Source: Dillenia suffruticosa (lineage: Eukaryota; Streptophyta; Magnoliopsida; Dilleniales; Dilleniaceae). From it: a stretch of DNA of 64,000 nucleotides. The translations under genes and the position numbers were made by a program. Location of the stretch: assembly GCA_033439265.1 (NCBI GenBank), contig JAVTVX010000002.1, positions 16,891,674 through 16,955,673 of the forward strand, in the 5' to 3' direction. Below are positions 3,411-49,203 of the stretch, one piece after another (position 1 is the first letter of the stretch; every line of letters begins with the position of its first letter). Under the pieces are notes generated by a model, which saw only the letters and a list, made by a program, of their open reading frames with translations, was not told where the DNA came from and did no database searches.

Positions 3411-6150
3411 TGCATCGCTTACTGTAGAAGGAAACATCTAATACTATGTGTATTTCTTGAAACTTGTACAACTCATCCATTAAATAGTTGGTTCATGTCG
3501 TCTTAGAGAAAGTCATAAACTGTCGACTGAATAATTATTATTTTAATAAAATAGAAGATTACAACATAATGAAAGCTTTTTGAAGGCCATAGGAAATGAT
3601 TTAAAATTTCTTTTGTAGTGTTTTCACGACTTTAATTTTTTCAATTCCGTGATGAACTAGTGGTTAGTTTAGCAAGGAACACTATGGGAAACGGAGTTTG
3701 TCCTTGGTACGCAGTTTATTCAATCGGGGTCTGGTTAAGTTCTTTATGAAGAAGAAATACATCAAGCAATCTTATAGCATGTTTTCTCTAAACTTTAAAG
3801 CCCTAATAAAATTGTATAAATAGATTATACTATCATGTGTTGTCAACAACCGTAACATGTACGTGTGCATGTGCATGTATTTCCCAACTGTAAAAGGGCT
3901 TTTCTTTTTTTTTTTTTTTTTAAATTTTATATTCTTGTGACGCTTTGCAAGTATAGTCATCGTTATCATGCCATGAGAAAATATTGTAATAGAAATGATT
4001 TTGTTGAGTATAAACCGAAAAAGCAGATGCAACTGTTGCTCATAATTCTTCTGTTTCTCTAAATTTTACTTTTATCATGAATCTAGGGTAGGTCGATTAT
4101 GTCCGTGCATTGAATCTTGGCCGGCCTTTTTCTGATGTGTGAAGTGTGCCCCGTCTTTTTGCTGTTGATTCAAGAGCATTCATGCTTGAGAATACACAAG
4201 TGAATAATAAATATGAAGCCATCAGCTGTATAAGCTCCCCCCCCCCTCTTTTGTGGTTTCCAGCAGAGTATATAAACAAATTATAATATGGGTCTGTGTT
4301 TGAATCAGTGGTTTGTGGTGCAGAAACGTGGTTTGTTGACTTTGTGGAAAATGTACACAACCTTGTTTAGAATTTTATTTCAGTGTAAATCTGAACTTCA
4401 TGCAGATTCTTGAACAACCATCTGACCGTCTTGCAGAAACTAGAATTTTATGTTGTTGCCTGTCTTAGATCAAATCACATTACTGTTGCTAAACGTTAAC
4501 GGGAAAAAAAAAAAGGAAAGGAAAAGAAGAGAAATGATTATAGAAGAAAGCTAACACAGAATTTCCCCCGGTCAACCTCAACACCTAGAAATGAGAGGTC
4601 AATGCAAAAGGACAGGATAATTGCGAAGAAGTCTGGTGTCACTGAATTCATAAATCTCAACAGATTTTGAGAAACCAGTTCAAATCCCGAAGATTTTGAC
4701 AGACCTGTTCAAGAGGGGTTGATCGAAGCATGAGTATACCAGAAGTATCATGGGGATGATCTCTCCCACAATAGTATTATATCGATCCATTTTTTTTTTA
4801 TTGTATAAAAATTTAAATCTAAAATTATCAGTATCATGCTTTTTTTAACAAGATAACATGGTGGTACATATTCCTACTCTCTCATACAATGAGTCGATAT
4901 CTCGGTCTCCTTTAACTACATAATTCAGCTCCGTAAAAGTTTTCTTTACAACATCAATTTTTTATTACTTTATGATAACTAAGATTCCATCTTTACAGAT
5001 ACATAATGATCTCTCTTAGTACCAAAGTTGAAGCAGTCTCTTAGTAACACACGAAATTTCAAGGGCGATGAAGCCCAAATCGCGTCTCGTCTGCTTATGT
5101 AGCTAGGAGATTCTCAATCGGTGCGTCTAGAGGTCCTCTCGGAGATTTGTTGGGGCCTTTGGCTCCTCGTCATTCTCCTATGGTCCGGTTGATAATTTTC
5201 TTCAAGAAGCAAAGTTGCAACCTTCTAGTTTTCGGAGTTTCGGATGATTTTGGGAGGTTGTTTCATAATCCATCTTGGGGCTTGTTTACTTCGTCATGGT
5301 GCGTTATATGGATTATTTGGTTATGCTTGTTTAAAGCCTACTTCGGGCCTTGTCTTGGGTGCTCTACTATTTCCCTATGCTTGGGCTTTGGAGGGTTTTG
5401 CCCTCATAGCGAAAAACGAAAAAAGAAGTCTCTATAAGACAGTCTTGTGATATAAATCTCCTCCAATCTGATGATTATAGATTCAAATTCGTGTACAATA
5501 AAAAAAAAGAAACAAAAGATTCCAGAGACAACTAAGCGGTTGCATCTCTTTCTCAATTTCTCTTTCTCAATCCCATACCCATAACAGGGGATTCAAATCT
5601 TATTATAACTGAAAAGTAGAAAAGAAAAGATTTTACGACTCTATTAATATATGAAAATTTAACATACATACAAATAAAGGATTTACTAGAGATTTTATTT
5701 TTCTAACAAATATTTTTATTAAAAAATGTTTTTCAAACCTCTCTGCATAAACACACCCTTATATTTACATTTATGGTTCGATTTTCATAATTTTTTTTTA
5801 AAGAGTGTGTGAGATTTTAAAAGTGTTTGAAAATGTAGTGTTTTTTTTTTTTATTTTTTATTTTTGGTTTCACTGTATTTTTGAATTTAAAACATTTCAT
5901 AGTCTACTTACCAGCAACAAGTAGTTCGATAAATGACTTCTAAAATCAATTTCTAAATAATTTTGCCTTAATTTTTTCATCAAGAAAATATTCAGATAAA
6001 CAAATGTAGAAAAATAAAAATAAAAATGTAGTTCCCAAAAAGTTACTTTTGAAGAAATAAGCAGAGCCTGGCCTGCGGGCCGTCCGGTTCTAATTACGTC
6101 TACTAAAAGCCTTCATTCATTGGGCAGCGACCCCCGCCCCGTCTCATAGA
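3411..6150. other. Intergenic DNA, no gene seen
   Basis: AT-rich sequence with poly-T and poly-A runs, for example near 3904-3922 and 5840. A moderately G/C-richer block at about 5040-5450 contains a 96-residue open frame on the plus strand with no recognisable domain; it could be an old repeat. No tRNA, rRNA or gene signal was found. Confidence 0.45.
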
Positions 6151-6333: not shown

Positions 6334-6616
6334 GTATCTGATCATTTTGTTTGACGACATAATTGCAACAGTCGATTGTGGTATAATTTTGGAAAGACTT
6401 GCACTTCATTTTCATCTACGTTCTAAAATTCGCCCATAGCTTTTCCCTTTTGTTATGTTTTGGGCTCGATTTTGGAGAATTTGATTTTTCTCTGTTATGA
6501 TTGTTGCTGCAAATCGTGGGTTTGTGTTTGTATGTCGGCCTTTTTTTTTTTTTGGATTTAGCTGTTTTACCATGTTTGTTCTTTCTCAATGAATAATACG
6601 AGGGGATGTAACATAG
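6334..6616 (+). other. Possible 5'-UTR intron of AE7
   Basis: A C/T-rich leader ends at a good donor, AAG|GTATCTG (6331-6340). A possible acceptor, AACATAG, ends at 6616, twelve bases before the AE7 start codon. An intron in the leader is plausible, but only a transcript could confirm it. Confidence 0.35.
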
Positions 6617-6628
6617 TTCAAGGTGGCA

Positions 6629-9600
6629 ATGGTTTCGGGGCTAATAAATGCGAATCCTGTCGTGTACGAGAAAAAGGAGCGTAGAATACGGGCGGCATCG
6701 GCTGATGTGGATGAGTATACTGTCGAACCTATTGACCAACAAGAAATTTTTGATATCCCTTTTTTCAACATTAACTCTTTTTTTTCTTTTGATGTTTCCT
6801 GTGGAAGATGTGTTGAGTCACGACATGATTATGGAAAACCAAACCAACTTTCGTGCTGCGTGCTTAGATTGTTGATGTTCTGTTAATCATATTATGATAT
6901 TCTAAGTACCATGTATTTTCATAATTTGCAGAATATGTGTCAATGCCATAGCAGTTGGGCACTTTCAGTTTGATCATTTGATTGTGAGAAATTGTTTTAA
7001 AGCTCTTTCTGCTTTCTTTGACGTGTGAAATTATATTGTCATGGTTTCTTATGAAAAGATGGCATAAGAATTAAAGCATTGCATTGCTTTAGAATTTCAG
7101 GTATGTTCTCCTTATGCAAATAGCATATTTTCATTTTTATTGATTGATCTTATGTTTTAAACGGTGTTGAATCAATTGTTTTCTTCCCCAAAATAAGTGC
7201 TCTTTGTTTGGATGTTTTTGTGTGTTATGATGGGAAAAGCTTGACTCCGAACAATTTCAAAGAAAAGTGAAGGAGGGAGTAAATAACTTTGGCCAAACAC
7301 GCGATGTGAATGAAAGGCAATTAATGGAAAGGAAAGAATAGTCAATTATGATGACTATAGTATAAGGGCATGTGTACTTTTCTTATTGATCTTCCTATTG
7401 GAACTTTTACTTCTGTCTTCTGCCACCAACTCTGAGCAAAAAGAAAGATTCAGAGCTCATAAATTAGACCATTTTCTCCTTTCCTTTTCACTATGTCAAA
7501 TGCCGCAGACGGCATAGTATTAACAGCTCATTGCTCAACGTTTCATTTCCCCAGCCTCTCTTAGAGGCGCAGCAAGTCCTCCAGCCTAGCAGTCATAAAA
7601 GGGAATTTAAAACCTAGCCTGAGCAGATTAAGAGTTCAGCCTGTGTTCTATTCTTTTGTAAACTGCAATGACTGGTTCCTCTAGATGTTGCAGGTGATGG
7701 TTGTATTTAATGCATTTTTGACTGCTTACGATCCATTGACTAAGGAATATAATTTATGATACACAAAGCCTCATTTGACTATTTCTTTGTAAATATTTTC
7801 TATTTTTTACTTACCCTTGAAAATTGTGAATAGTGAAGTGAATTCTTCATATATCCTAGTCATATACTCATCTCTTCCCCAAATTTTAGACCTGTTTACT
7901 TATGAATATAACCATTGAAGTGCTCTCACTAGCAGACCTTTTCTAAATTTGTTGTCTCTCCTTTCTTTCCTGTTTGCCATGAAAGAATGTTACAAGTGAT
8001 GTCAAAGTTTCAAGTCCCGCAAAGCTGGGGTACGTCGTGAAAAGAAAATGTCTAATGCTACTCATGTATCCGAGAAAGGTAACATGAACTTTATACAGGA
8101 AGGGAGGGAATTGTAATCACCGATAATGTATTGTTGACACATAAATGGTCCTTCTTGTTGGATTTTTTTTTTATTTTTAATTCTTTGGGGAAGTGTGGGA
8201 GGAGATTGGACTGCTTTTGTTCAGTCTATCTACTGTCATTGTGAAAGTGAAGCAAATTGTTTTATATGACATTCCATGAGAGGGAAAAATGTTGGACTTA
8301 GCTTTCTTGTTGAGCTCATGTGGTGACCTCAAGCACATCTAGGCAAACTGTGTTGAAATTACCAAATGGATTGCTTTAGAGCTAATTGACAACAACATCT
8401 AAGGGGTTCCTCTTTCCTTTTTTTTTTTTTTAAATTACATATTGAACTTTTTCTCTCTCATATTCCCTAATTGCACAAAGGTAGAGATTCCTAGACCCTA
8501 CTATAGAACCTTATCCCAGTGCCTCATGTTTGTTAAATGGACATTTAGACTGGATTGCATTGACTTTCTTGTGGCCTCATTAGACAAACTAAAGCCAATA
8601 TGCACTTTCAAATAATTTGTTCTAGAAAGATGTATGTTGGCCCCCAACCTTTAGTTGTTAAATTATGGTGTGTGATGGTCTAACTACAATGAAAAGATTT
8701 TCTATAGTATTCACGGTATGATGACCTGGTAGTGTGGTTTTTTTTTCCTTAATGCTCATACATCATATTAGAGATATAAAAGATCCAGAGCATCCTTATT
8801 CACTTGAAGAACTAAAAGTCATAACAGAAGATGCCATCGAAGTGGATGACAAGCACAGTTATGTTCTGTAAATATATACCCAACTGTTTTTCATAGTTCA
8901 CTTTTGAAATATCTGCGGCACTGTTATTCATCAATACACTATACTGGTTTTATGCCTTTTCCTTTTTTTTTTTCTTTCGATTTAGGGTAACATTTACTCC
9001 TACAGTTGAGCATTGCAGTATGGCTACAGTAATTGGACTTTGCCTGCGAGTGAAGCTTATGCGGAGCTTGCCTTCTCGATATAAGGTAATCCCTTCCTTT
9101 CATTTCATAAGCTTAGCTGATAATATTCTCTTTAATTTCCTTCCGGATGCAATCAGTTTTTTTGCCCCTTCTTTTTTTGTTTGTGGGTTTGGGTTTGGTG
9201 AACTGCACACCTGATGCTGTGCCCAAACTAGTCATTTGAGTATGTTTGTTTGCTTGGAATCTTTATTTCTTAACAAACCTTACTGATAAAGTAGCTTCAG
9301 CTCTTAATTACTTGTTTACTTGTTGATTTTGCTTCTGATATACCTTTTTGAGAGTCTTACTAGTCCAGGTTTCTTTTTCTATAAGTTGTTCATTGATCAT
9401 CTTATTAAGACATAAGATATTTCTACTTTGTGCTTATTTAATTTGGAAAGGGAAGGCCTCTTCCTAAGTCAAGGCTTTTAACCAGAGATTAAAATTGCAG
9501 TCACAATTGCTGTGGGGGTCGTGATTGCAGTTGTAATGGTATAAGGTATAGCGGGTTTGCTGTTGTGGAAATTGCCCATTGCGGAGGAATTGGCTTTTCC

Positions 9601-12600
9601 ACTTTGTGGAGGTGTCACAGTAATATCATGTCTTGCAATGGCAGCTGCGGTGGTAATATATGGTCATGGTCAGAGCAGCTGCCGTGGCCCATTTGTTAGT
9701 TCTATGCTGCTAGCTGGTTTAAAGTTAGAATTGATGCTGAAAATCTCTTGCATGTGATGAGAGATTCCATTTTTTTGGGATATTTGGAATGTATGATAAA
9801 ATGAAACAGTAAGGAAATTAAAAACAGATATTTCCTTATTGTCCTGTTCTTTGGGCTAATGAGAAATCTTTTTAATGTTTGAGTGGAGCACTGGATTATC
9901 CAAAAAAATGTGCATACTCTTCTGGTAACAAAGTTTAGAGGTAGCAGAAGCTATAAAATATATGACGTCTGCTACGATTTCCTTTTTATTTCTTGTATTT
10001 TTGTTGGAAAAGAATGCATGAATTTACTTTATCCCATCGACTCAATTTCTTAGAAGAGGTTCGTTTCTGTCACTTTTTTATGGTGTGTGACCTTTGGATC
10101 TTTTAAAAGATTTAGCTTTGCAGATATTGAAATGGACCAGAAAACTCCTTTGTTTTAATTTATGTTTTTGTGCTCCTGTGAATTAAATGGTGGAATTTGA
10201 ACGGAGAAAATATAAGTACTCTTAGAGACAAATTAATTTAAGTAGCAATTTTTTTTTTTGGTGATACAAAGGAGATTCAAGTAGCAAATTATTCCACTAA
10301 TGATGATTCAAAGACAATATGAAAATAGATGTCTACTAATATGAAGAGTATAGGTAAGGAGGTTTTTGGTATATCTAAGAGTCAGGTCCCGATAGACAAG
10401 GAGTTATGGTGGTGGAACGAAGAAATACAAATTACTATCAGAACGAAACAAGAGTGTTATAGGAGTCTCAAAGATAATAGTAGTAGTGATGCATATGAAA
10501 AATATAAAAGTGCAAAAGAAAAATAGGTGAAAAGGTTATCCACGAATCAAAAAGTAAGGTATGTAATGAACTATACAAAAAACTAGAGACCAAGATGGAG
10601 AAAGAGAGATCTACAGAGTTACCAAACTAAAGGAGAGAAAGAGAACATATCTAAATGGTGTTAGATATATTAAAAGTGAAACTAATAGTATACTTGTAAG
10701 AGATGAGGACATAAGAAAGCTCGAGATACCTGTAGAAAAAGTTAATAGAGATTTTAAATGTAAGATTCGTCCCTATAAAGTTAAAGATGGAGAAAGAGAG
10801 ATCTACAGAGTTACCAAACTAAGGGAGAGAAAGAAAACAAATCTAAATGGTGTTAGGTGTATTAAAAGTGAAACTAATAGTATACTTGTAAGAGATGAGG
10901 ATATAAAAAAGTGTTGGAAAGACTATTTTGATAATTTTTTTAATGTTAAAAGTACAATAAATATAGGAAATATTGAATACCTATAGAAGAAGTTAATAAA
11001 GATTTTAAACGTAAGATTCGTCCCTATAAAGTTAAGGAGGCTTTAAAGAGGATGATGAATAATAAAGTCATAAGACTTGATGGAATTTCCATTAAAATGT
11101 CGAAATGCTTGGGTGAATTTGGTATAGTAATGTTAACGGATCTTTTCAACAAAATTTGGCAAACCATGAAAACGTCCAAAGCATGGAGAGAGAGCATGCT
11201 TTTATCCCTATATAAGAATAAAAGAGACATACAAGATTGCTCCAATTACAGAGAAATAAAACTTATGAGTCATTCCATGAAGTTATGGAAGAATGTTGTT
11301 GTTGCTGTTTTGTTCTCCTATCTTCTGTTTTCTCTAACACAATTTTACAGAAAAGGAGGTTCTTGAGATTCTAGTATGCTGACTTTGGTTATGAGCAGAT
11401 TCTAACTCATGGAGGAATTTATTATCTTCAGACTTATTGAAAATTAAACTCATGTCCTTTGGATAAGTGCTAATCTCCTGTATTGTATTCTTACCTCAAT
11501 TTTATTGATGGTAGAAGTGGGGATAGAGAAATATTAGTGACTGATAAGCTGGTGAGTCGACATGATGTATTGAAAGCCGCGGCATGAGTGTGCTAATGTT
11601 GATCGCATGATCTACATGTGATCAAAATGTTATGACTATATTGGAAGTTTAACTTAAAAGATTGATTGCAGCATTATGTAACATATGAGAGGTTAGTCAA
11701 GCAGATAGCTTGCATTGATGACTATCTGGTTCCATGTTAGTGATGTGGGAGTGTTGATGTAATGCACGTGATGAGACAAGCTGCATGCTGTGAGTGAACA
11801 GGCAAGTATCCCTTCTGATTAAAGGATGGATCCATGCCATATTGCACTACCAGAAACCTAGGTTGCACGGAAACCAATATGGAGAAATAGCATTTTATAA
11901 GAATATAGGAAATGGAAACGTGAGAAAATGCATAAATATAAAAAATATAAAAAATATAAAAAATATAAAAAATATAAAAATTTTTATATAAATATTAATT
12001 ATTTTATAAAAATAATAGAATAATAATTTTTTTATAATAAAAATCTAAAATGATCAAATATTTAACTGTTAATTATAAGATAAAAAATATAAAAAAATAA
12101 AATTGTAATTAAATAACCAAATGATTCATTAAATGTGGGAAAATATGTAAATATAAAAAATATAAGGATTTTTGTATAAATATTAATGAATTTAACTTGT
12201 TGAACCGTTTCGAAAACTGGAAACGTTTTGGAAACTGGAAATGTTAGTATTGAAAAGCTTCTGTGCATCAGAACCAGAAACTATAAGACTTTATCCTAAG
12301 CTACTTGCTAGTTCTATATAGGAGCTGTTCATGTCATCCCCTGCATCATATTGTTGGGAAAATCTTTCGTTTTTGCTTTTCCTCACCTTTTTAAACACAC
12401 TTCCCACCCCCCCCCCCCAAAAAAAAACCATTTTCTTCTTTGGACTTTCAAGGGATGTTTCTTTCCTTTCAGGGAAAACACTAGCTTTCTTTTAGATTTA
12501 AGTCCGAATCATTTTGAAATCATTAGATGTGATCATGGATTTTACCTATGGACCAAGGTTGGTTATTATGCATGTACGGAGAAGATTAACAATTTTCCTA

Positions 12601-14494
12601 CTATAGTGCCCCCTGTTGCAATAAGGGTCCCAGTAGATCCTATATGAGCTGGAAAATAGGAAAGAAAAAGTGGTCACCCACTAAGATGGTAGTTAAAAAA
12701 TTTATTGAAGGTTACTTTCATGTGGAGGAAATTTTGTAACTTTAGGGCTTGAGAGGCTTCCAGTTCCACCCCTAGGGTGATCATTTTTTTGGGGGGGGGG
12801 GTTAAGTGTTACAAGGTATTGACAGTATTATAGGTTCCCAAATATGGCAAAACGCTTCAAGCCATGAATAGCTCCATTTTTTCTAGTGATAAGGCAAAAA
12901 ATATGCATAAGGTGGGGATCTCCTGTTGTATTTTTGATGGAGCTGTATAAATGCTGATACAGATGGTGCATATGTTAGTAGACGTAGGAATGAGTGGACC
13001 TGGGAACCGAAGATGATGATGGCAGTACTAGAAGGCCCTAGTTTGTCATAGCAGTTGGTGTTTGTAGGAGGATGCATACTTTAGAATGTGAATTTTGATT
13101 AACATTGTGAAATTGGATGTTTCTTGGAACGTAATTCCTGCTTATGTAATCTTGACACTTCAAAATGGAGGCTGTGTTATGCATCTAGCACTAAGTTGGA
13201 TATGATACTTTCTTAATTGGTGTTTCATGTCAATATGTCCAGAGATGTATTTAATTGTTTAGTACTTTTCAAACTAAAGATACTTTTAAATACTTCATTG
13301 ATACCACTACTGCCTGGTTTTTGGAATTTATGCATTCATGGTTGTAGATATGATAATTTTTTTAGCTAACATGAATTGCTCTTGACGAACGATATTGATG
13401 GCCTATTTGCTAAGTTTGAAATATGTCTGGGCATAGATATAAAGAATGAGCAGTTTGTTATAATGTAAGGAGAATTATACATTATGCAGTTTCTGATATT
13501 TGTCAGATTGTTATACAAGTGTTATTTTGTCTGGGTTTTTCATCCCTGTCCATGCTTCATGGTTGTATTAGATGTAAAGCTTCAAACTATGGATGTGCTT
13601 GGCATGCAGTGGCATGGTTGTGCTGGTGATGGTCAATTGTGTATTGTTATATGAGCCACTTACTTTGCCCCTTTTATTGTGATTTGGAACTTTATTGACT
13701 CAAACAACCATGAAATGTAATGCCTTTGTGGGTAGTCGATATTTTTAATTCCTTTTTTCATGTCTGCAATAATTGCCGCTGCATATAACCACTGAGGACT
13801 CTGATTTTGCTGGAAATTCTTTTTGCTGATTAAAAAGGTTTCTGGAATTCTGATATGAGTTTGCGTCATAATTTGTCCTATTGACTCAACCAACATGATG
13901 AATGTCCTTTTTTTTTGGGTTTAGGTGGATATTAGGGTAGCACCCGGAACCCATGCAACAGAAGCTGCAGGTAATACCTTATGTCCAAGAATTACTGACG
14001 ATGCTTTGCTCCATGCACGTTATATAGTAGCTTATCATGAAGTTGGGTAATTAAGTCTGTTTTTAAATACCCTCCCATTATGAGTTGACACCTTACATAA
14101 ACTCAATACCATGTTGTTGGAGAGCAAGGCTTGGATCATCCAATCATGTTAGTGATGTCTCCTCTTGTTCACTTCAGTTTCATCTCCTAAGAAGGCATAC
14201 TCCTATTAAACCAAACATATACTTGGCCTAGCTGGAGAATATATCTGATTGAAATAGTCCGTCCTTGATTAACCTTTATAAATTTGCTCCGAGCAGCAAC
14301 GACATAGGATCCTAGCTCAATGAAGCATTTCCCATATGTTGTCCCATTTGATGAAGTTTGATATTTTGACATTTGTCATACTTTCTCATGCAGTAAATAA
14401 ACAGTTGAATGACAAAGAACGGGTGGCTGCAGCTCTGGAAAACCCTAACCTGTTGGATATGGTTGATGAGTGCTTGGCCCCCTCTTATGCTTAA
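6629..14494 (+). CDS. AE7: AE7 / MIP18-family cytosolic Fe-S assembly protein
   Basis: Five coding exons: 6629-6752, 8762-8867, 8986-9085, 13925-13970 and 14394-14494. They give a 158-residue protein, the usual length for plant AE7. It begins [19 protein letters not shown] and contains [18 protein letters not shown], the conserved block [20 protein letters not shown] (Cys at residue 87, the family's conserved cysteine), [10 protein letters not shown], and a tail ending [17 protein letters not shown]. In Arabidopsis AE7 works in the cytosolic iron-sulfur assembly targeting complex with CIA1 and MET18, delivering clusters to nuclear DNA-repair and replication enzymes. ATG 6629 is chosen because homologues start MVSGLI; an in-frame GTG lies two codons upstream. 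Intron 1 (2.0 kb) looks like a U12 AT-AC intron. Intron 3 (9086-13924, 4.8 kb) holds an RTE LINE and an AT-rich repeat. No damage is visible, so the gene looks functional. Confidence 0.95.
6753..8761 (+). other. U12-type AT-AC intron (AE7 intron 1)
   Basis: No usable GT donor lies near the end of AE7 exon 1. The exon boundary fixed by protein homology ([14 protein letters not shown]) falls at ATTTTTG|ATATCCCTTT, close to the U12 donor consensus ATATCCTTT. The 3' end carries TTCCTTAAT at 8745-8753, an exact match to the U12 branch consensus TTCCTTRAY. It is followed nine bases later by the dinucleotide AC (8760-8761) and exon 2 (AT CAT ATT AGA). Joining G to AT restores the Asp codon and the frame. 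Confidence 0.9.
10312..11312 (+). mobile_element. RTE-clade LINE, internally deleted copy
   Basis: This lies in AE7 intron 3, in the sense orientation. The translated remains match the start of an RTE reverse transcriptase [23 protein letters not shown] early on, then [20 protein letters not shown] and [20 protein letters not shown]. The reading frame is broken by several stops and shifts, and the RT core after MKLWKN is missing. At about 11295 the sequence passes straight into a TTG-rich run (TGTTGTTGTTGCTGTT). That run resembles the tail of the better-preserved copy at 57577-59585, so this copy may be joined directly to its own tail. Confidence 0.85.
10593..11036 (+). repeat. Imperfect tandem duplication inside the LINE
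   Basis: The segment beginning AGATGGAGAAAGAGAGATCT at 10593 is repeated from 10785. Unit 1 spans 10593-10784 (192 bp) and unit 2 spans about 10785-11036 (252 bp). Both end in GTAAGATTCGTCCCTATAAA plus a few bases. Unit 1 lacks roughly 60 bp present in unit 2. Retroelement ORFs do not normally carry this, so it arose during or after insertion. Confidence 0.8.
11931..12247 (+). repeat. AT-rich dispersed repeat, copy 1
   Basis: Over about 300 bp this aligns with the sequence at 33481-33770. Both have CATAAATATAAAA or similar at the left, then TTTTTATATAAATATTAA, TTATAATAAAAAT, AATTATAAGAT, ATTCATTAAATATG, and a right end of repeated GGAAACTGGAAA-type or related motifs. Copy 1 has a local expansion of the 8-mer AAAATATA at its left end. 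It may be a MITE: a weak inverted match exists between TTGCACGGAAACC near 11861 and GCTTCTGTGCATC near 12260, but no clear target-site duplication was found. It lies in AE7 intron 3. Confidence 0.6.
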
Positions 14495-15544: not shown

Positions 15545-17473
15545 ATGGCGTCGTCGCTGGTAGCATTACGGCGAACGAGTACTACAACGCCTCTCTCTCT
15601 CCTCTTCAAGGTACGATACTCTCATTGTCACTCTCACTCTTTCTCTCCTAGCTTTCTTTTCTTCTTCAATTACAATAAGCCCAACCCAACCCTAATCCTA
15701 ACACTCACAAAGCGCACTGCCTCTTCTTTGTCAATCAAAACCCTAACTACATCCTCCACTTCTGCTCTTCCCGATGACTATCAACGACCTCAACAGCCCC
15801 CTTCCTCCTCCAGTCAGCCTAGGGTTTATCAGGATCAGAGAAACAATCCCAATCCCATTCACTGGCAAAACCCTAATCATAATCAGTTCAACTCTGCTAA
15901 CAGGAACTATCCTCCACCTGTGAACCCTAATTACCAGGTCCAGAACTATCCCCAACCCAGAAATTTTCCCGATCAGCCGTTTCCCAATCGGAACTATCCT
16001 CCGTCTGGAAACCCTAATCCGTATCAAAATTATCAGAATCAGAATCAAAATCAAAATTTCTATCAACCTGGAAACCCTAACCAGTATCAGGGTCAGAATT
16101 ATAATCAACCTGCTGGCAACCATAATCAGTGGAACCGTCACGTTCAGAGCTATCCCCCGCGTGTGAACCCAAATCCAAACCCTAATCAGGATCAAGGTTA
16201 TTCACAACCTGGAAATGCAAATCAAGGGGGCAATCAAAATCAGGGTTACCTACAACGTGAAAATCCTAACCAGACTGCTTATCAGAAGCAAAGCCCTTAT
16301 CCTAGTCAAGGACAGGGTCAGGTTGCAACCAATCAGTCTCCAAGTGAACCACCTGTGAATGTCGATTTGATGAGTTTGTGTCAAGGGGGTAAGATTAAGG
16401 AAGTTATTGAGGCTTTGAATCAAGGTGTTCCTGCAGATGCCAATTGTTTTTATGCTCTGTTTAGTTCTATTGGCAATCCGAAGTCTCTTGAAGATGCAAA
16501 GAAAGTGCATGACTTTTTCTTGAGGTCTTCATTTAGGAGTGATCTGAATTTGAACAACAAAGTGATCGAGATGTATTCAAATTGCGGGAGTATGACGGAT
16601 GCTCGTCGTGTGTTTGACCATATGCTTGATAGGAATATCTATTCTTGGCATTTGATGATTAATGGGTATGCTGCAAATGGGTTGGGAGATGATGGTTTGC
16701 ATCTGTTTGAGAAAATGCGGGAGACAGGGTTAAGACCCACGGGGGAAACTTTCCTTGCTGTTCTTGCTTCATGCGCCACCGCAGAAGCTATAGAAGAGGG
16801 GTTTGTACATTTTGAATCAATGAAAACAGAGTATGGGATAGATCCTGGAATGGAGCACTACTTGGGGCTCATTGGGGTTCTTGGAAGTTCTGGTCATCTT
16901 GCTGAAGCCAAGGAGTACATTGAGAGAATGCCTGTGGAACCCACTGCAGAAGTTTGGGAAACGTTGAGGCATTTTGCACGAGTTCATGGGGACATTGATC
17001 TTGAAGATCATACTGAGGAGTTGATGGTTTCTCTTGACCCGTCAAAAACTGTTGTTAAAAAGATTCCCACACCACCTCCAAAGAGGTATACTACGACAAA
17101 CATGCTTGAAGGGAGGAGTAGACTGCATGAGGTTCGAAATCCAACTCTATATAAGGATGACGAAAAGTTGAAGGCATCCATGAAAGAACAAGTTTATGTG
17201 CCGGATACTAGGTATGTTCTTCACGACATTGATCAGGAGGCAAAGGAGCAGGCTTTGCTCTATCACAGTGAGCGGTTGGCTATTGCATATGGACTGATTA
17301 GCACTCCTGCAAGGACACCTCTTAGGATCATCAAGAACCTCCGTGTGTGTGGTGATTGTCATAATGCCATCAAGATCATGTCCCGAATTGTTGGGAGAGA
17401 GTTGATTGTTAGAGACAATAAACGGTTTCATCATTTCAAGGATGGAAAATGCTCTTGTGGAGATTACTGGTGA
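15545..17473 (+). CDS. DYW2: DYW2-like PPR protein, organellar RNA editing factor
   Basis: A single-exon gene of 642 residues. The first ~50 residues are basic and Ser/Thr-rich ([20 protein letters not shown]), fitting an organellar transit peptide. Residues about 80-265 are a low-complexity Asn/Pro/Gln/Tyr region built on NPN and YQ units. From about residue 271 a few PPR motifs follow ([40 protein letters not shown]), then an E-like part. A complete C-terminal DYW deaminase-type domain ends the protein, with HSE at 574-576, the zinc pair CGDC at 602-605, and the terminal DYW. The short PPR tract with a full DYW domain fits Arabidopsis DYW2 (At2g15690) and relatives MEF8/MEF8S. DYW2 associates with NUWA and E+ PPR proteins to edit mitochondrial and plastid C residues. 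The family assignment is firm; DYW2 rather than a close paralogue is likely. The first ATG in a good context was used. Confidence 0.9.
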
Positions 17474-32168: not shown

Positions 32169-32241
32169 GGGGGTGTAGCTCATATGGTAGAGCGCTCGCT
32201 TCGCATGCGAGAGGCACGGGGTTCGATTCCCCGCACCTCCA
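32169..32241 (+). tRNA. tRNA-Ala (anticodon CGC)
   Basis: The 73 bases fold as a complete tRNA. The acceptor stem GGGGGTG pairs with CACCTCC, including the G3-U70 pair that marks alanine tRNAs, and the discriminator base is A. Box A is TAGCTCATATGG. The anticodon arm is CTCGC-TTCGCAT-GCGAG, giving anticodon CGC for GCG codons. The T arm is CGGGG-TTCGATT-CCCCG, containing box B. CCA is not encoded, as usual in nuclear genes. There is no intron. It sits 24 bp beyond the 5' remnant of the PPR pseudogene. Confidence 0.97.
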
Positions 32242-48462: not shown

Positions 48463-49203
48463 TTAATCAGAACTAAAGCGACGATTTGCTCTCCTTGCAT
48501 CACCAACCCTCAACCTCCTCCTGTTTCTAGATGTCCTAAAGTTATCAAATACCTGATAAAAGATACATGATGTCCACCAATTCCCTTTGTCTCCAGGGAA
48601 GTCCTCAAATTCATCTCCAGTATCATCATCTCCATATTCAATCACATAGTCACCCAAAACAACCCCACGAGGAACCTCTGAATGGATAGTGCTCAGCACA
48701 TCTATTATTTCAGAAGACTGCTGGAAGTTCTCCCAATCAAGCTGCCTAGCAGGATCAACTTTAGACGGACAAGCATGAGGGTGCTCTATTTGAGCATGTA
48801 TCTGAAGTTCCATGAATGTTCCTTTGAAGGCGCATCGCTCCTCTTCACAGCAACGATGCTTTTTGTCCAGATGTGCACGGGCATTGTCAACAACCACCCA
48901 ACCAGTAACATCTCCTCTACACAAGGGACAAGTTGGTTTGCAGCTTTCCTCTGACTTTGTTGAGAGGGGATTCTCCACTGTGGTAATTTCAGATGTTGAA
49001 GATGAATTGAACCCAACAGACATACCAAAGAAACTTTGAAACAGTTGAAGGCAATTTGATTGCAAATGGTCAGTGTCACACACAAAAGGGCGACAGCCTT
49101 TCCCATAAGATGAGCATTGGAGAAGTACACTATTATGAGGAAACTCTAAGCATATAGGGCATATCACGTCCTCCCAGTTGGTATTTAAGTGAACATCCTC
49201 CAT
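48463..49203 (-). CDS. DUF1644 zinc-finger-like protein
   Basis: A single coding exon of 246 residues. It starts MEDVHLNTNWEDVICPICLE, the usual start of the plant DUF1644 family, in which a CPICLEFPHNSVLLQCSSY motif is typical. Cys/His pairs continue: RPFVCDTDH, CPLCRGDVTGWVVVDNAR, then H and C residues in LDKKHRCCEEERCAFKGTF and IHAQIEHPHACP, which look like C2H2-type ligands. An acidic patch (GDDDTGDEFEDFPGD) precedes a basic tail (RNRRRLRVGDARRANRR). The biochemical role is not well established; some members have been linked to stress responses. The ATG is preceded on its strand by a probable leader with introns reaching about 50950. Confidence 0.9.
   Translation of the reverse strand: MEDVHLNTNWEDVICPICLEFPHNSVLLQCSSYGKGCRPFVCDTDHLQSNCLQLFQSFFGMSVGFNSSSTSEITTVENPLSTKSEESCKPTCPLCRGDVTGWVVVDNARAHLDKKHRCCEEERCAFKGTFMELQIHAQIEHPHACPSKVDPARQLDWENFQQSSEIIDVLSTIHSEVPRGVVLGDYVIEYGDDDTGDEFEDFPGDKGNWWTSCIFYQVFDNFRTSRNRRRLRVGDARRANRRFSSD

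Follow-up and report, generated by a model that had tools for sequence, protein, structure and literature searches.

In human cells, intron 1 of FAM96B (CIAO2B) serves as a U12-dependent control: an antisense oligonucleotide against U6atac causes this intron to accumulate and its spliced product to fall, an effect that is not seen with U4 antisense (PMC4010461). Positions of U12 introns can be conserved over long distances, and 20 are reported as shared between human and Arabidopsis (PMC2426677). Among charophytes, minor introns have been reported from Chara and Klebsormidium (PMC10639083). One survey assigns 26% of Arabidopsis U12 introns to the AT-AC subtype (PMC7367187), a share of 4.8% from another study is cited in PMC5932401, and among plant introns as a whole, AT-AC introns account for about 0.06% (PMC6310983). 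The consensus of the U12 branch site is given as TTCCTTRAY (PMC5932401). AE7, the plant gene of the FAM96B family, encodes a protein whose partners in the CIA targeting complex are NAR1, CIA1 and MET18 and which also binds ROS1 (PMC4619598). Here we describe an AE7-type gene in a stretch of 64,000 nucleotides of Dillenia suffruticosa DNA (the window). With a probability that we put at roughly 94%, the Asp codon within its EIFD motif is split by an intron (6753-8761, the first in the coding sequence) of the orthodox U12-dependent AT-AC kind.

The AE7-type gene and its first intron

Five exons on the forward strand (about 6.6-14.5 kb) join into a coding sequence of 477 nt that encodes 158 amino acids and forms an intact, stop-terminated reading frame; introns 2, 3 and 4 of this gene model are GT-AG. 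The product carries a FeS_assembly_P (DUF59) domain (PF01883, residues 38-109, E 3.1e-07, 31 bits against a cutoff of 23.5), and its residues 1-110 match the PDB sequences of galla-2 (E 2.1e-32) and FAM96A (8e-22). The conserved HCS cysteine motif is present, with H86, C87 and S88 invariant in four of four aligned proteins (plant, galla-2, FAM96A and L001, a homologue introduced below). The domain and the PDB matches support membership in the AE7/CIAO2B family, in keeping with the name AE7 used in the first-pass annotation. By sequence, the gene at 6629-14494 is AE7-type and belongs to the CIAO2B/MIP18 family, a grouping that covers AE7 and AE7-LIKE alike. Its features are as follows.

6629..6752, + strand: AE7 coding exon 1, from the ATG to ...EIF plus base 1 of the Asp codon; part of the intact ORF
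6753..8761, + strand: predicted U12-type AT-AC intron 1; 2,009 nt, phase 1, 64.8% A+T; junction from protein homology
6753..6762, + strand: predicted 5' splice site ATATCCCTTT; consensus ATATCCTTT; C at +7
8745..8753, + strand: predicted U12 branch site TTCCTTAAT; exact match to TTCCTTRAY; branch A at 8751 or 8752
8760..8761, + strand: predicted 3' splice site AC; 9-10 nt past the branch A
8762..8867, + strand: AE7 coding exon 2; opens with AT of the Asp codon
8986..9085, + strand: AE7 coding exon 3, ...HCSMAT... to SRYK; GT-AG introns on both flanks
13925..13970, + strand: AE7 coding exon 4; joins into the 158-aa ORF
14394..14494, + strand: AE7 coding exon 5; includes the stop codon

With exon 1 ending at 6752 and exon 2 starting at 8762, the Asp codon is split as G/AT, and the border of exon 1 and intron 1 reads ATTTTTG/ATATCCCTTTTT. 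The donor ATATCCCT agrees with the consensus ATATCCTT (PMC2426677) at seven of eight positions, the C at +7 being the exception. At 9-10 nt, the gap between branch and 3' splice site is short; GCTCATAC follows the branch motif, no pyrimidine tract lies in between, and a run of T stands directly upstream of the branch site. Three placements of the junction (6752/8762, 6753/8763 and 6754/8764) yield an identical mRNA, with the termini AT-AC, TA-CA and AT-AT, respectively. Minor introns with AT-AT ends have been described (PMC8280824), but the donor of this register reads ATCCCTTTTT instead of ATATCC.

The first-pass annotation had proposed the borders 6753-8761, and these coordinates proved exact, with AT-AC termini at the junction set by homology; the exact branch site that it had named is likewise present, TTCCTTAAT fitting TTCCTTRAY. 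Its statement that AC ends the intron nine bases after the branch site is right when counted from the A at position 8 of the motif, but the distance is ten from the A at position 7 and 8 nt from the motif's last base. The label "textbook" suits the branch site and does not quite suit the donor, in which C replaces T at +7.

Other features of the window were recorded as well. By eye, a possible 5'UTR intron of AE7 lies at 6334-6622 (AAG/GTATCTG ... TTCAAG/GTGGCAATG). Intron 3 spans 4,839 nt and contains an ORF at 11052-11366 without a Pfam match, together with two repeats: 128 nt at 10592-10719 that recur at 10784-10911 (95%), and 62 nt at 10726-10787 that recur at 10977-11038 (92%). The stretch 10592-11366 looks like a decayed remnant of a LINE-type reverse transcriptase. 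A single-ORF DYW-type PPR protein (DYW_deaminase, PPR) is encoded at 15545-17473, just 3' of AE7. Further along, the region 24046-45560 holds fragments of a GHMP kinase (24046), a PPR protein (31692, - strand) and a G-alpha domain (44940), which bring to mind a neighbourhood of genes for phosphomevalonate kinase, a PPR protein and an extra-large G protein; their order may be similar to that of At1g31910-At1g31930 in Arabidopsis. A tRNA gene was found at 32169-32241 on the + strand (Rfam, 65.6 bits) and a DUF1644 protein (PF07800) at 48463-49203 on the - strand.

Junction choice and the weight of the motifs

We enumerated single-junction models between exons 1 and 2, pairing exon-1 ends at 6640-6910 with exon-2 starts at 8600-8860, kept the in-frame open junctions (n = 10,912) and scored them against galla-2. 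Among junctions with GT-AG, GC-AG or AT-AC termini, 6752/8762 scored highest; the best scores by class were 297 for AT-AC (n = 57), 270 for GT-AG (n = 55) and 251 for GC-AG (n = 24). The highest scores clustered no more than eight bases from 6752/8762. At 3-8 bases downstream lay six junctions with scores of 295-302, and three of these exceeded 297 (302, 302 and 300), mainly because Ile suits the Leu of galla-2 better than His does. None of their termini (CC-AT, CC-CA, CT-TA, TC-TC, TT-TT and TT-AT) is a known splice pair, and the L001 homologue has His at the junction, as the AT-AC model predicts.

These scores bear on the possibility that the gene is spliced at a cryptic GT-AG pair, or contains a further small exon, and that the U12 motifs are coincidental. 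In-frame open GT-AG junctions do exist, but the best of the 55 falls short of the AT-AC score and replaces HIRD by 16 residues (net +12), which bears out the earlier claim that the EIFD border has no acceptable GT-AG solution. The plant, L001, galla-2 and FAM96A proteins align ungapped across the junction, with D42, I44 and R45 invariant in all four, and thus leave no residue for an additional internal exon.

As to coincidence, the U12 motifs by themselves prove nothing, since pairs of them occur in the window at the level of shuffled sequence. TTCCTTAAY was observed 4 times against 2.5 expected, and the donor-like RTATCCYTTT, with at most one mismatch, 33 times against 32. ATATCC paired with a U12 branch site and an AC end was found three times on the + strand, compared with a mean of 2.3 and a maximum of 20 in 40 shuffles of that strand. 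Apart from 6753/8761, the + strand pairs were 7851/8761, which shares its acceptor with intron 1, and 48212/50580; the - strand held six (donors 18616 and 17904; three ends at 16374-16380). We treated the two on the + strand, which are at shuffle level, and the six on the - strand as chance pairs. The weight of the evidence comes from the fact that both motifs of intron 1 sit at a border set by protein homology. There, their joint chance is about 2.9e-8, the product of about 9e-4 for ATATCC in any of the three equivalent registers and 3e-5 for a U12 branch site followed by an AC end. This value and the human counterpart, a U6atac-dependent intron whose donor core and codon are the same, leave a very slim chance that GT-AG splicing is used here and the motifs are accidental.

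Splicing of an AT-AC intron by the major spliceosome has precedents: U2-type AT-AC introns such as SCN4A intron 21 are described in PMC2831892, and 85 major AT-AC introns or related subtypes are reported in PMC8280824. We consider this explanation slimmer still for intron 1, given that ATATCC together with an exact TTCCTTAAT 9-10 nt before the end is a U12 signature and that splicing of the human counterpart depends on U6atac (PMC4010461).

A U12-dependent intron 1 would be spliced along the established steps of this pathway. The ATATCC donor would be read by U11 and then by U6atac; U12 would pair with TTCCTTAAT, the bulged A would attack the donor, and joining would take place at the AC that lies 9-10 nt past the branch A. 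We infer from this assignment that plant AE7 intron 1 depends on the minor spliceosome. Retention of the intron brings in a stop after 85 residues and removes most of the Fe-S domain (38-109); AE7 output should therefore track minor-spliceosome activity, to which the Fe-S supply of DNA-processing enzymes would be tied.

The first-pass annotation had further suggested that the donor may be weakened by its extra C. In a calculation with human snRNA letters, the U11 duplex of the plant donor, which forms one base out of register, reached -8.3 kcal/mol compared with -6.1 for the consensus, and the U6atac duplex -6.6 compared with -7.1 kcal/mol, with a bulge. Pairing of the human FAM96B donor ATATCCGCC, which has G and not T at +7, was weaker (U6atac -3.3; U11 -5.6, in a different register), and yet FAM96B intron 1 is spliced (PMC4010461). 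In rice, one of the U12 introns given in PMC7367187 has the donor GTATCCATCA, likewise with no T at +7 (computed -2.3 and -3.4). In light of the pairing energies and the human donor, which is spliced without T at +7, the idea of a weakened donor is unsupported and we dropped it: by calculation and comparison, the C at +7 is unusual, yet weakness does not follow. A one-base assembly error in the C/T run may underlie it.

Along the same lines, the gene copy could be an AE7-LIKE paralogue, or its donor could have decayed and be poorly spliced. AE7-like genes occur in plants, AT3G50845 being listed as such in PMC4844363, and for a Physcomitrella U12 intron with an extra C in its branch site the authors suggest poorer splicing (PMC5932401); here, it is the donor that carries the C. 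Decay is countered by the intact ORF, by a computed U11 pairing that is not below consensus and by the human donor that is spliced with G at +7. Taken together, we regard a paralogous copy or a decayed donor as unlikely.

The human counterpart and a GT-AG intron two bases away

The reverse primer used in PMC4010461 for unspliced FAM96B RNA reads ATCTTCGATATCCGCCGCT on the sense strand and can be parsed as ATCTTCG/ATATCCGCCGCT, that is, Ile-Phe, the G of an Asp codon and then ATATCC. On the donor side, which the primer covers and where the cut is placed by the U12 motif, plant intron 1 and FAM96B intron 1 are identical in codon, donor core and phase. Both are intron 1 in genes of one family and lie in the Asp codon of the IFD motif, in phase 1 as given by ATATCC. 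They differ in that the human donor goes on with GCCGCT and the plant donor with CTTTTT, and in that splicing was shown in human cells. Because codon, phase and donor core match, intron 1 is very probably orthologous to FAM96B intron 1 and so was probably present before plants and animals diverged; such an age accords with the U12 positions that human and Arabidopsis are reported to share. The comparison at this place covered two lineages whose intron is of the U12 type, human by its donor side only, and gain by plants and animals independently would have to reproduce the codon, the phase and the ATATCC donor, which makes it very unlikely. The 19 fly U12 introns of PMC2831892, which are listed under CG numbers, include no galla gene by name, as would fit loss in the fly. 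In view of the minor-spliceosome-dependent human intron with ATATCC in the matching codon, the plant intron is less odd than the first-pass annotation had claimed. It documents a U12 intron in an Fe-S targeting gene, apparently kept since before the plant-animal split.

Relatives of the gene were sought in other sequence collections. Among prokaryote genome contigs, one of 60 pattern matches was confirmed; in viral contigs, none was confirmed among 13 matches to a single-protein pattern and 42 to an alignment pattern. The confirmed relative, L001, is an AE7 homologue at 4748-5357 on a 603-kb contig from the MAG of a bacterium, Crocinitomicaceae isolate M30B20. Its neighbours (kinesin, RabGAP-TBC and E1 dehydrogenase) and its introns mark this contig as eukaryotic. 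The leader of the E1 gene looks plastid-like to us and the contig may come from an alga; the ORF carrying this leader had no match in Pfam. A U6atac search of the MAG gave no match, as did the search of 14 control genomes (0/14), and is hence uninformative.

L001 has two modelled introns. The second, TATGAT/GTGAGT...TTTTGCAG/CATATA, interrupts the gene at the same Asp codon as the plant intron, but it is a U2-looking GT-AG intron of 72 nt in phase 0 and lies exactly 2 nt further downstream. Of two randomly placed introns, one would land within 2 nt of the plant position with a chance of about 2%. In the plant gene, the phase-1 split of GAT and an exon 2 that starts with AT, like the intron, allow the border to slide by 2 nt without a change in the mRNA. 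To turn into a phase-0 GT-AG intron, the slid intron would then need a U2-type donor context and two substitutions, by which AT becomes GT at the start and AT becomes AG at the end. We tentatively raise the idea, doubtful as it is, that the AE7 junction reveals a U12-to-U2 route in which a 2-nt slide is followed by conversion, with GAT/GTGAGT...TTTTGCAG/CAT of L001, the one sequence on which it rests, as its outcome. This route is at odds with the rarity of AT-AC conversion (79 single-subtype clusters comprise 5 AT-AC and 74 GT-AG) and with the view that a switch to GT-AG U12 comes first, both from PMC2831892, where the orthology of clustered introns is described by the same phase. Alternatively, the intron of L001 may have been gained independently.

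If slide and conversion did occur, comparisons that demand identical phase would overlook changes from phase-1 U12 to phase-0 U2 introns. Phase-0 U12 introns are under-represented and phase-0 U2 introns are in excess, and such a route could add to both. The AE7 position, with a U12 intron in plant and human and a U2-looking intron 2 nt off in a third lineage, offers a test site for AT-AC to GT-AG conversion.

AE7 intron 1 compared with described U12 introns

Among the main texts of open-access papers, we found none that mentions AE7 together with "minor spliceosome", or AT1G68310 together with U12, and FAM96 and CIAO are absent from the main texts of PMC3728624 and PMC8280824. Database lists or supplements may well include the AE7 intron of Arabidopsis already, and AE7 intron 1 belongs to a well-known class of introns. 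A close parallel is the fourth intron of CBP20 in land plants, a conserved U12 AT-AC intron with TTCCTTRAY and about 65% A+T; its length ranges from 76 to 2,733 nt (PMC5932401), compared with 2,009 nt and 64.8% A+T in AE7 intron 1. The two differ in gene and position. Compared with the U12-type AT-AC introns of Arabidopsis (IAOD and ERISdb, as presented in PMC7367187), AE7 intron 1 has the same termini, donor core and branch motif, and differs from them in the C at +7 of its donor.
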